Part shown: positions 5,297 to 35,419 of the stretch, piece after piece
Layout: every line of letters begins with the position of its first letter
How positions within the stretch are numbered: the stretch's first letter is position 1
DNA from: Bacteroidales bacterium
GTDB lineage: Bacteria; Bacteroidota; Bacteroidia; Bacteroidales; UBA932
Length of the DNA: 40,533 nt
Direction of reading: 5' to 3'
NCBI GenBank assembly: GCA_017428035.1
Contig: JAFRRR010000111.1
Span: forward strand, 1-40,533
The notes under the pieces: model-generated
What the model was told of the DNA's origin: nothing
Seen by the model: the letters and a program-made list of their open reading frames with translations, nothing else
Database searches by the model: none
Program-made: the position numbers and the translations under genes

Positions 5297-5370
5297 GGCG
5301 GGATAGCTCAGCTGGTTAGAGCGCATGATTCATAATCATGAGGTCCCCAGTTCAATCCTGGGTCCCGCTA
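5297..5370 (+). tRNA. tRNA-Met (anticodon CAT), probably the elongator
   Basis: The 74-nt cloverleaf is complete. The acceptor GGCGGGA pairs with TCCCGCT (5363-5369) with a G-T first pair, and the discriminator is A5370. The D arm is GCTC/GAGC, the anticodon stem CATGA/TCATG encloses loop TTCATAA (anticodon CAT), and the T arm is CCCAG-TTCAATC-CTGGG. CCA is not encoded. The G1-T72 pair and the lack of three G-C pairs below the anticodon loop argue against the initiator. A CAT anticodon could also be tRNA-Ile2 after lysidine modification, but the acceptor and anticodon stems resemble the elongator Met of Bacteroidales. Confidence 0.93.
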
Positions 5371-33319: not shown

Positions 33320-33385
33320 CGTATCGAACAAATCATAGCCGACATCGAAACCAAAAAACTCCACTGGCATGAACTGTCGGAATAA
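33320..33385 (+). pseudogene. Relic of the 3' end of an ABC-F gene
   Basis: This 66-base stretch encodes 21 residues and a stop. It is clearly homologous to the last residues of the intact ABC-F protein: relic RIEQIIADIETKKLHWHEL versus EIEQIIADIDAKELRWIEL. At DNA level about 48 of 60 aligned bases match (from ATCGAACAAATC on), with 23 of the first 24 identical. There is no start or upstream coding region: similarity begins 6 bases after the PUL stop codon. It marks a recombination junction or an old duplicate of abcF destroyed by arrival of the PUL. Confidence 0.8.
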
Positions 33386-33444
33386 TTTGCAAATACATTA
33401 TATTGTATTACATTTGCAAGCAAATGTTAGAAAATGTAATACAA
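33385..33444 (+). promoter_or_regulatory. Autoregulatory promoter/operator of the toxin-antitoxin pair
   Basis: A full promoter, TTTG (33386-33389), 19 bases, TACATTTG (33409-33416), is embedded in palindromes. ATTTGCAAAT (33385-33394) overlaps the -33 box. ACATTTGC-AA-GCAAATGT (33410-33427) overlaps the -7 box. A perfect 13-bp inverted repeat TTGTATTACATTT / AAATGTAATACAA (33403-33415, 33432-33444) reaches the start codon. Such nested palindromes over both boxes are what an antitoxin dimer would use to repress its own operon. Confidence 0.75.
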
Positions 33445-33445
33445 A

Positions 33446-33751
33446 ATGGCTACAATTACAGTACGTGTTGACGATCAACTGAAATCAAATTTTGATTTGC
33501 TTTGTGACATGTTTGGTCTCAGCAACAGTGCGGCGCTTAATCTTTTTATGAAAGCAGTGGTGCGCGAGCGGAGAATCCCTTTCGAAATTAAAGCTGAGTC
33601 TGATGCCGAGGCCCGCATCCGGGGCTGGGAAGCTTTTCAGCGGATGCGCGAGTCCGTTAAAAACACTGACGCAGCAGATATGACACTTGATGATATTAAC
33701 AAGTTGATAAAAGAGGCGAGAGATGAGAAATCGAGTGTACGCAGTAATTGA
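33446..33751 (+). CDS. RelB/DinJ-type antitoxin
   Basis: The 101-residue protein starts with a ribbon-helix-helix DNA-binding domain typical of RelB/DinJ: ATITVRVDDQLKSNFDLLCDMFGLSNSAALNLFMKAVVRERRIPFEI (described here by its landmarks TITVRVDD, GLSNSAALNLF and RIPFEI, residues 3-48). The C-terminal half is charged and probably wraps the toxin. It is expected to neutralise the PIN protein and repress the operon through the upstream palindromes. Its last 29 bases overlap the toxin gene, which suggests translational coupling. RelB/DinJ antitoxins usually pair with RelE/YafQ toxins, so the PIN partner is a shuffled pairing. Confidence 0.88.
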   Translation: MATITVRVDDQLKSNFDLLCDMFGLSNSAALNLFMKAVVRERRIPFEIKAESDAEARIRGWEAFQRMRESVKNTDAADMTLDDINKLIKEARDEKSSVRSN

Positions 33752-34139
33752 TACCAATGTGTTAGTATCGGCACTGATTGCTAAAGATCAGGAATCCTAC
33801 CCCCTCAAAGTTCTGGACTACGCTTATTCCGGCAGGATTGTACCCCTTTTCAATGACGAAATCCTTGAAGAATATCAAGTTGTTTTAAAGAGGGATAAAT
33901 TCAATTTGTCTGCTGAAGACATATCTCAAGCTATTTCTACATTGGCTCGACTGGGCGAGAGCGCCACGCGGATATCCATTCACGAAGATTTTTTCCCCGA
34001 CGAATCAGACAGGAAGTTTTACGAAGTAATGATGAGTAGGGAGAATGCTTTTCTTATTACAGGAAACTGCAAGCATTATCCACACCAGCAGAATGTGGTG
34101 ACACCAAGAGAAATGGTTGAGATACTTGGAGTCCTATAG
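33723..34139 (+). CDS. PIN-domain toxin (COG1569-like ribonuclease)
   Basis: The 138-residue protein is a single PIN domain of the 'putative toxin, PIN family' group. Metal-binding acidic positions are visible: VIDTNVLVSAL (D10), NDEILEEY (E49/E50) and PDESDRKFYEVM (D96), followed by LITGNCKHYP (N115) and the terminal VVTPREMVEIL. PIN toxins cleave RNA with Mg2+. The start inside the antitoxin gene is the only one that keeps the DTN motif. Its target cannot be read. The pair sits between the PUL and the structured element, a common place for a module that stabilises accessory DNA. Confidence 0.88.
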   Translation: MRNRVYAVIDTNVLVSALIAKDQESYPLKVLDYAYSGRIVPLFNDEILEEYQVVLKRDKFNLSAEDISQAISTLARLGESATRISIHEDFFPDESDRKFYEVMMSRENAFLITGNCKHYPHQQNVVTPREMVEILGVL

Positions 34140-34173
34140 AGGGAGGGGAAGTGACGTCTGAAAGCTAAATGAC

Positions 34174-34481
34174 AGGGGTGAGGGCATCCGGGAACATTGT
34201 GCTTTTTAGCGGCACGCCAGCTTCACAAGCTCCGGTTAGGGGCGGGAGCATTGCGAACGTCACTAATTGAGCCCGTCAACGACGTTACAGGTGCCGGTCA
34301 GGCGCCAATCGGCAGCAGCCGATAGCGGAAGCCGGGCAGGGTTGGCCTATGTGCGAGAAAGGCTGGAGCGACGGGTCTGGGCAGCGCCCAGCAACATAGA
34401 GGCGTCGCGGCGAAAAGGAGCTTTGAGGCGGTTAAGCGCGCAGCGTCAAGAAAAGCACCGTCCCCGGATGCCCTCACCCCT
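34174..34481. other. 308-bp GC-rich structured element bounded by a perfect 19-bp inverted repeat
   Basis: AGGGGTGAGGGCATCCGGG (34174-34192) returns as its exact reverse complement at 34463-34481. Inside are several further perfect or near-perfect stems: AGCTT-CAC-AAGCT (~34219-34231), AACGTC/GACGTT (34256-34261, 34281-34286), GGTGCC/GGCGCC (~34291-34306), ATCGGC-AGCA-GCCGAT (~34308-34323), CTATGT/ACATAG enclosing CTGGGC-AGC-GCCCAG. It fills a 422-base gap with no credible gene. It could be a structured non-coding RNA closed by a long terminal stem, or a non-autonomous (MITE-like) element; no obvious target duplication (GACA left, TTCA right) was seen. It does not match an RNase P, tmRNA, SRP, 6S or group II domain V pattern I recognise. 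The strand is undetermined. Confidence 0.6.
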
Positions 34482-34525
34482 TCAAGCCGGTCAAAAATTC
34501 GACAACCACATCCTCTATTTTGCAC

Positions 34526-34533
34526 TATATTTG
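34526..34533 (+). promoter_or_regulatory. -7 element for the DUF1460 gene
   Basis: TATATTTG fully matches TAnnTTTG and ends 28 bases before the ATG at 34562. A clear -33 TTTG was not found at 19-21 bases upstream. It shows that the gene does not depend on the toxin-antitoxin transcript. Confidence 0.5.
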
Positions 34534-34561
34534 TTGAACCGTTTGCAAAAACATCAATACA

Positions 34562-35419
34562 ATGATTAAACGTGTCGTCATTTCGTTATTTGCTGCATTC
34601 CTGACTCTGAGTGCCTTCGCGCAGGAAGATTTTATGTCCAATGTGCGCTTCAGCGCTGCTTCACCGGCCATTTTTGAGAAGGTAGCGGGGGCGCTGGAGC
34701 CGTATAAAGAAGAGCCCGCAGGCGAGCTGATTGTGCGCTGCGCCAAGCAGTTTCTGGGCACCGAATATGTGGCCGGCACCCTGGAAACAGAACCGGAGCA
34801 GCTCACCATCAATATGGACAAGACCGACTGCATCCTGTTTGTGGAGATGTGCCTGGCGATGGTGCAGACGGTGAAGGGCGACGAGGCCACATTCGAGAAT
34901 TTCTGCCGAAACACACAGGCCCTGCGCTATAGAGGCGGGGAAGTGGACGGCTACGCCTCCCGCAACCACTACACCAGCGGCTGGATACTGCAGGGCGAAA
35001 ATAACGGCATCTTCAAGGAAGTGACCAAATATCTGGGCGGCAGCCCCCTGGATCAGAAATTCAGCTTTATGAGCACCCATCCCGACTCATACAAGCAGCT
35101 GGCCGATAATCCCGGAGCCATTGTGGGCATCCTCAAGGTCGAGAAGGAACTGGAAGGCCACAACTACTGGTATCTGCCGCAGAGCCACATATCCGATCTG
35201 GCAAAAGGCATCAAAGAGGGCGACATCATCTGCTTTGTTACTCCCGTAGGCGGGCTGGACATAGGCCACGTGGCCATAGCCTGCGAGAAAAACGGCGAGA
35301 TGCACTTTATCCACGCCTCCACAAAAGCGATGAAGGTGGTGATTGATTCCCAGACCATCTCCGACTATATTCTGACCCATAAATCCACCAACGGCGCAAG
35401 GGTTGTAAGACTCAACTAA
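34562..35419 (+). CDS. DUF1460 family protein (N-acetylmuramoyl-L-alanine amidase-like)
   Basis: The 285-residue exported protein (signal ...AFLTLSAFAQ, cleaved near residue 21) belongs to DUF1460, a papain/NlpC-P60-like fold reported for amidases acting on peptidoglycan fragments. Family landmarks: AKQFLGTEYVAGTLE, the nucleophile segment KTDCILFVEMCLAM, RYRGGEVDGYASRNHYTSGWI, LPQSHISDLAKGIKEGDIICFVT and GLDIGHVAIACEKNGEMHFIHAS with the expected His. It would act in the periplasm on cell-wall muropeptides. It has its own -7 box and is followed by a separate promoter for the MMPL gene. Codon choice returns here to the GGC/CTG-rich style of the left flank. Confidence 0.88.
   Translation: MIKRVVISLFAAFLTLSAFAQEDFMSNVRFSAASPAIFEKVAGALEPYKEEPAGELIVRCAKQFLGTEYVAGTLETEPEQLTINMDKTDCILFVEMCLAMVQTVKGDEATFENFCRNTQALRYRGGEVDGYASRNHYTSGWILQGENNGIFKEVTKYLGGSPLDQKFSFMSTHPDSYKQLADNPGAIVGILKVEKELEGHNYWYLPQSHISDLAKGIKEGDIICFVTPVGGLDIGHVAIACEKNGEMHFIHASTKAMKVVIDSQTISDYILTHKSTNGARVVRLN

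Follow-up and report, generated by a model that had tools for sequence, protein, structure and literature searches.

Our results suggest that the structured element at positions 34174 to 34481 of the window (the whole 40,533-nucleotide stretch of Bacteroidales DNA analysed here) is probably a non-autonomous extragenic palindrome dispersed in many copies, comparable in kind to REP, ERIC and BOX repeats but far larger than the REPs, with a selected single-strand fold, either as RNA or as single-stranded DNA. The element has approximately 230 to 310 bases, forms one long branched hairpin and is scattered through the intergenic DNA of ruminant-stomach bacteria. We observed many unlinked intergenic copies, their presence in some species and absence from others, a conserved branched fold, co-varying arms and motifs that reach other families. 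The original prediction had offered two readings, a large structured RNA or a MITE-like element whose folding is a by-product, and the present result combines them, in a repeat that is dispersed and whose fold is under selection. A single RNA gene is ruled out, the element being multicopy and dispersed, and the MITE half of the proposal fared poorly, no target duplication above chance being found.

Fold and sequence conservation

In the window copy (all window coordinates refer to the forward strand), the closing helix P1 is formed by a 5′ arm at 34174-34195 and a 3′ arm at 34460-34481, with 21 of its 22 bp paired; among the copies its sequence is free and its pairing is kept. The outer 19 bp are perfect, as had been predicted, and for a window of this size and composition the chance expectation of perfect 19-bp inverted repeats at most 400 nt apart is 6e-5. 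The RNA fold of 34174-34481 reached -150.7 kcal/mol, compared to -121.1 ± 6.2 for 100 shuffled sequences, none of which was as good (z = -4.8). The intergenic gap that contains the element spans 422 bases (34140-34561), with a PIN-domain gene on one side and an AmiA-like gene on the other. Note that the two listed open reading frames overlapping the element (100 and 75 aa) both cross 34307-34399, a segment missing from the short form. The proposed extent of 308 bp was correct for the arms, which are real at 34174 and 34481, but too narrow, since in many copies pairing continues outward into the flanks (131, compared to 106 ± 6; 3/20,000 permutations as high). From the fold of the window copy and this flank pairing above chance over 23 copies, the complete element, counting a weak outer stem, occupies 34164-34487, the outer pairs in that fold being GCT (34164-34166) with AGC (34485-34487) and TGA (34170-34172) with TCA (34482-34484).

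The comparison set comprised 23 full-span copies (18 short and 5 long) from eight genomes of one genus; G016:C42 (at a contig end), G006:C63, G007:C46, G007:C33, G016:C76 and G016:C131 were left out as cut or decayed. Across the set, the interior is conserved and the arms are variable. The summed alignment score of the copies' own arm pairs was 411, compared to 256 ± 12.5 when the 3′ arms were permuted among copies (0/20,000 as high), and 365, compared to 223 ± 12, when the second members of three orthologous pairs were removed (again with no permutation as high). The own 3′ arm was the best or tied-best partner in 14 of the 23 copies; in the other nine, one to seven foreign arms scored higher. 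RNAalifold predicted 63 pairs from all 23 copies, 22 of them with double changes. With 11 short copies, 73 pairs were predicted and 94.0% formed, and double compensatory changes were found in 21 of them, compared to 9.7 ± 2.0 after shuffling (0/500 as high) and to 4-7 for slid versions of the structure, over which the predicted one is favoured because it was derived from the same alignment; the copies are also related to each other. In the closing helix of the orthologues G016:C108 and G018:C129, an A-U pair in one is a G-C pair in the other (GGAGGAT/ATCCTCC vs GGGGGAT/ATCCCCC). Thus, compensatory changes in the stems, a check suggested alongside the original prediction and a property of structured ncRNAs, were found. 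Since the arms co-vary within copies and 21/73 pairs carry double changes, folding does not look like a mere by-product; these comparisons indicate that the fold itself is kept by evolution, with pairing maintained while the sequence drifts.

Inside P1, the nearly invariant TGTGCTTTTTAGC (34198-34210) provides the 5′ strands of helix P2 and of an A/GUUAA internal loop, and the conserved AGCGTCAAGAAAAGCACC (34442-34459) provides the 3′ strand of P2 with the internal-loop bases 34445-34449. The 3′ strand of a second internal loop, GGTTAA, maps to 34430-34435, this strand and AGCGTCAAGAAAAGCACC being placed by the copy comparison and the consensus fold. The apical motif has its 5′ half, GTCAACGACGTTAC, at 34275-34288, with similar motifs in other genera and families, and a 3′ remnant, GAGGCGTCG, identified by copy comparison at 34399-34407. 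Other parts of the predicted fold did not hold. A contact had been proposed between GTGACGT (34151-34157) and ACGTCAC (34257-34263), in competition with an AACGTC/GACGTT stem. The left partner of this contact lies in a flank that the copies do not share, its right partner reads ACGCCAC, CCGACAC or CCGACTC in other copies, and the AACGTC/GACGTT stem is not conserved, the conserved branches being other stems.

The evidence on the acting strand is mixed. The + strand is more stable than the - strand in 23/23 copies, by a mean of 17 kcal/mol, which largely reflects shared descent, and it folds better in 5 of 7 distant sequences. Arm mismatches are G-U in 15 cases and A-C in 6; in a strand-neutral set, consisting of the 43 pairs that both strands are predicted to form, the counts are 20 and 15.

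Copies, composite form and distant relatives

Homologues, whose existence the original prediction had left to be checked, are the 23 full-span copies in eight genomes of the genus and relatives in other families. The genome of the window (96% complete) has eight copies. Its long copies are those on contigs C94 (the window itself), C15, C33 and C75, with 88-91% identity to the window copy, and its short copies, on C111, C106, C87 and C120, are devoid of the segment equal to window 34307-34399. An initial search covered 60 genomes, this one included, and matched 17 of them. Of these, 16 belong to the genus, some matching by the inner module only, and the remaining one, from a different family, matched over 23 bases alone. 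A short copy used as query matched 9 of the 26 genus genomes, again including the window's, and had no match in the other 17; in G006, the match is limited to an 81-nt left end, leaving eight genomes with full-span copies. The named records that share a 20-base piece with the element are for the most part Bacteroidales MAGs, with goat, yak or water-buffalo rumen, reticulum or omasum given in several of the labels. The element had no match in the phage and plasmid collections. Pattern matches elsewhere were rejected: by eye, the element is absent from a viral contig matching a 20-base pattern and the hairpin from all six viral contigs matching a motif pattern, the stretch of a viral contig matching an inner-module pattern is unlike the element, and a Lachnospiraceae-labelled contig (L067) has the 20-base pattern, not the element. 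As a separate observation, six short copies (L044, L048, L055, L086, L093, L096) have an extra hairpin of approximately 30 nt, of the GAAATGNCC...GGNCATTTC type, at a fixed point of the second branch.

The window copy is a composite, second-generation element, with another repeat carried in its apical loop. This nested repeat of about 93 nt (34307-34399) is present in the five long copies and absent from the 18 short ones. It occupies one position, replacing approximately seven bases (TGTAAAA) of the short-form apical hairpin, and the apical motif of the window copy is therefore interrupted. Even so, the composite form is found at four places of its own genome. Of the 26 genomes of the genus, at least 13 have matches to segment 34307-34399 alone (covering about 167-260 of the query). 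The segment represents an independent repeat of approximately 85-93 nt, AATCGCC..GGCGATAGCGGAAGCC...GGGCAGCGCCCAG, which is dispersed in the genus; among the 13 inner-only loci scanned (L016-L023, L029, L032, L033, L035, L036), four adjoin tRNA genes. We also observed, on G007:C46 (L066 7301-7949), a MITE-like element of approximately 647 bp with inverted ends GGCTCACCGGGAAAACCCTGTG and GGACCACCTGCAAAACCCTGTG and an 8-bp duplication, CATATATG, that holds a decayed 5′ half of the hairpin element and an inner module. Its 5′ segment has further copies in L117, L118 and L120.

Other Bacteroidales genera and families hold divergent relatives, some of them multicopy, whose apical motif is similar. 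R1, a covariance model of the short form, matched 12 of 299 genomes of the family, the eight genus genomes at 189-255 bits and the rest weakly. Since weak matches (about 20-36 bits) also occurred on the reverse strand of true copies, they were accepted only with a visible motif, as in G014 (seven copies; same genus, without the main form) and in G128 and G289 (another genus), all of which share CGTTAC-stem-GTAAAAGG with similar surrounding bases. R2, a model of the apical motif with 17 pairs, was built from four groups (the main form, G014, G128 and G289); nine of its pairs carry double changes, compared to 4.2 ± 1.1 after shuffling (0/500 as high). Among 393 genomes of the order, R2 matched 10 at E ≤ 0.01, the window's own included. 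Judged by eye, G618 (seven copies) and G526 (one) were convincing, and the matches in G323, G449, G488, G549 and G563 were discarded. G371 has four copies (best E 5e-8) with a less exact apical motif, and G641 is a possible relative, its match being weak (E 0.0012 for one genome, with 393 searched). Outside the R2 region, G618 and G526 carry the GCGT(T/G)AAGAAAA...TTTTTAGC module of the window family with its two strands swapped; a module resembling the AGCGTCAAGAAAAGCACC strand of P2, likewise with strands swapped, is present in G618, G526 and G014. The G618 copies are embedded in mosaic repeats of greater length, and five of the seven lie close to the end of a contig.

Insertion sites, neighbours and transposase genes

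The joined flanks of four copies were searched across the genus for filled and empty sites. Between the EPSP-synthase and tRNA-Leu genes, the element is present in G018 and G016, G010 and G025 have nothing, and G000 has a solo outer stem, as a deletion of the hairpin would leave. The same site has a different CCCAATGG palindrome in G017, G021 and G023, and other foldable inserts in G006 and G007. Unlike palindromic inserts thus follow EPSP synthase in different species (L244 near 570-831; orthologous L234-L240 and L243), and this intergenic site is possibly a hotspot for extragenic palindromes. Searches with the flanks of G016:C207 and G000:C111 gave one-sided matches only. The flanks of the window copy are 30-75 bp apart in G016, G006, G017 and G021, compared to approximately 1.2 kb here, and are separated by approximately 1.7 kb of other DNA in G010. 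In those four relatives, only a short distance separates the AmiA-like gene (34562-35419 in the window; PF07313) from the gene end that the window has at 33323-33387. Both the element and the toxin-antitoxin pair are therefore accessory, in agreement with the predicted location at the edge of an accessory region beside such a pair. The pair consists of a RelB antitoxin gene (33446-33751; PF04221, E 9e-14) and a PIN_3 toxin gene (33723-34139; PF13470, E 1.5e-18) that ends 34 nt before the arm.

Toxin-antitoxin genes adjoin 4 of the 23 copies: RelB/PIN_3 in the window (33446-34139) and at G010:C101 (L062 5025-5729), YefM/YoeB at G018:C91 (L063 7161-7698) and HicA at G000:C33 (L003 2078-2260). 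For the other 19, none was seen among the neighbours examined. At G000:C36, an arm remnant is joined to the YefM flank also seen at G018:C91. The copies' flanks are otherwise unlike, except in three orthologous pairs and for a repeat common to G000:C111 and G007. Orientation to the nearest clear gene 3′ end, classified in 9 of the 23 copies from open reading frames read by eye, is mixed: the window copy, G016:C207, G018:C153 and G021:C9 have the same orientation, and G010:C4, G016:C175, G018:C91, G007:C190 and G018:C129 the opposite one. Copies may also have spread with neighbouring DNA by recombination.

Y1 (HUH) transposase matches were obtained in 13 of the 14 other carriers searched, 12 of them above the curated cut-off, and the window's own genome has one; in that search no Y1 match was found in G371, which holds relatives of the apical motif. 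Two copies, G010:C4 and G018:C153, adjoin a Y1 gene, and theirs are the 2 of the 30 fetched Y1 loci with the element. Four Y1 loci viewed closely, including both of these, have other palindromes (L103 and L210 by scan; L214 and L229 by eye). Since the element is in 2/30 loci and the closely viewed loci have other palindromes, these Y1 genes are probably not cognate; Y1/RAYT was rejected as a proven mobiliser, because the two adjacent genes have palindromes of their own. At L103 944-2001 (G000:C62), a RAYT-like Y1 gene is flanked on either side by a short palindrome of its own, GATGGAGCGATTA. A retroelement or retron RNA was likewise rejected, the one genome searched, that of the window (96% complete), having no reverse transcriptase match (PF00078).

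Competing readings and known systems

We consider it improbable that the element is a MITE, that is, a short DNA transposon on whose terminal inverted repeats a DDE transposase acts in trans to mobilise it, with the fold as a by-product. Such an origin would account for terminal inverted repeats on a multicopy, intergenic element, and the decayed 5′ half within the MITE-like element of G007:C46, with its 8-bp duplication, points the same way. However, the arms match within a copy and differ between copies, which is the reverse of transposase-recognised ends, and the ends are less conserved than the interior. Moreover, target duplications had been proposed, together with multiple copies, as a mark of a MITE; the own genome has its eight copies, but no duplication above chance was detected in 22 copies, whose longest direct repeats averaged 5.18 nt, compared to 5.40 when permuted (8886/10,000 permutations as high). 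We give very little credence to a cassette-type recombination site, an integron attC-like hairpin mobilising the neighbouring toxin-antitoxin genes. Its conserved bases lie in the interior and not at the arm ends, and among the neighbours examined, no such gene was seen for 19 copies, against the four copies with one, the four relatives whose flanking genes are close together without pair or element, and the arm remnant at G000:C36.

A multicopy family of structured ncRNAs, trans-acting or part of an RNP, with genes that disperse with neighbouring DNA and motifs that bind protein as RNA, is a rather unlikely reading. The double compensatory changes in the short copies and in the apical motif argue for it, as do the change between G016:C108 and G018:C129, the better folding of the + strand in 23/23 copies, the excess of G-U over A-C among arm mismatches (15 to 6) and the conservation of motifs across families. 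Against it, the copies lie in both orientations relative to their neighbours, with flanks mostly unlike, 17 of 26 genomes have no match yet the own genome has eight copies, and there is no Rfam relative. Rfam covariance models gave no match at E ≤ 5 to 33700-34800, and a tRNA at 5297-5370 was the sole match at gathering scores in the window. Two matches below the gathering scores emerged from 12 loci that hold copies or relatives, namely Flavo-1 (E 5.8e-5) and P9 (E 0.63, at another G618 locus). The Flavo-1 match, at L190 820-966 (G618:C307; 36.8 bits, gathering 42), is approximately 210 nt from that copy's apical motif, on the opposite strand.

The preferred reading, a dispersed palindrome with a selected fold, has several precedents. 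ERIC or IRU is a long imperfect intergenic palindrome, with internal insertions at fixed points in ERIC, and bcr1 combines a structured RNA with mobility and target duplication. These differ from the element in size, sequence and host, and the target duplication of bcr1 is absent here. BOX repeats of Streptococcus pneumoniae, described as interspersed, extensively structured and proliferated (PMC3049150), resemble it by description in dispersal and structure and belong to an unrelated phylum. With REP/BIME and their RAYT (TnpA-REP, HUH Y1), the element shares extragenic palindromes that are multicopy and intergenic, a single-strand fold and Y1 genes in the genomes, and it is itself a dispersed extragenic palindrome. 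However, REPs are described as 20-40 bp with a GTAG or CGTC tag (PMC3733652), whereas the element is a branched hairpin of 230-310 nt with no such tag common to the ends of the 23 copies by eye, and the Y1 loci viewed have other palindromes. A published survey describes, around the Bacteroidetes Y1 genes of subclass 2.6, "atypical secondary structures" that recur in the genome (PMC6006769). Flavo-1 (RF01705), likewise a Bacteroidetes motif, is reported indistinctly sense or antisense of transcribed regions (PMC2864571, PMC9723704), and matched neither the element nor its inner module. Palindromic candidate RNAs of Bacteroidetes are given as 80-132 bp (PMC8040213), and FopS, a multicopy Bacteroides sRNA (PMC11697453), is built otherwise, combining a 5′ stretch that is single-stranded with a terminator hairpin. 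In open-access papers on structured repeats, RAYT, bcr1, MITE, FopS and Flavo-1, no description of the element was found by title or abstract.

For a dispersed repeat of this kind, we infer a single-stranded DNA step, a recognising protein and effects on neighbouring transcripts. The fold would be under selection through protein recognition, most likely while the DNA is single-stranded, as lagging-strand template or excision intermediate. By analogy with HUH Y1 enzymes, which recognise REP and IS200/IS605 hairpins, the candidate mobiliser would be a single-strand (HUH) transposase, and single-strand insertion would leave no target duplication, matching the observation. A copy near a gene end may be co-transcribed as a 3′ hairpin. 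More tentatively, the element may belong to a set of mobile structured nucleic acids across Bacteroidales, RNA or single-stranded DNA, which would combine free co-varying arms with a protein-recognised conserved core of reusable modules and accept repeat cargo. The modules would be an apical motif near GUUYRACGACGUUA/UAAAAGGAGG(A/C)G and the A/GUUAA internal loop, which could be flipped between strands.

Large repeats with a selected fold stand between "junk palindrome" and "RNA gene", and this one raises the question of whether some palindromic Bacteroidetes "RNA motifs", such as Flavo-1, are dispersed repeats. Natural variation among the 23 copies, sites with and without the element, and conserved motifs in several families make the recognising protein and the acting strand directly searchable.
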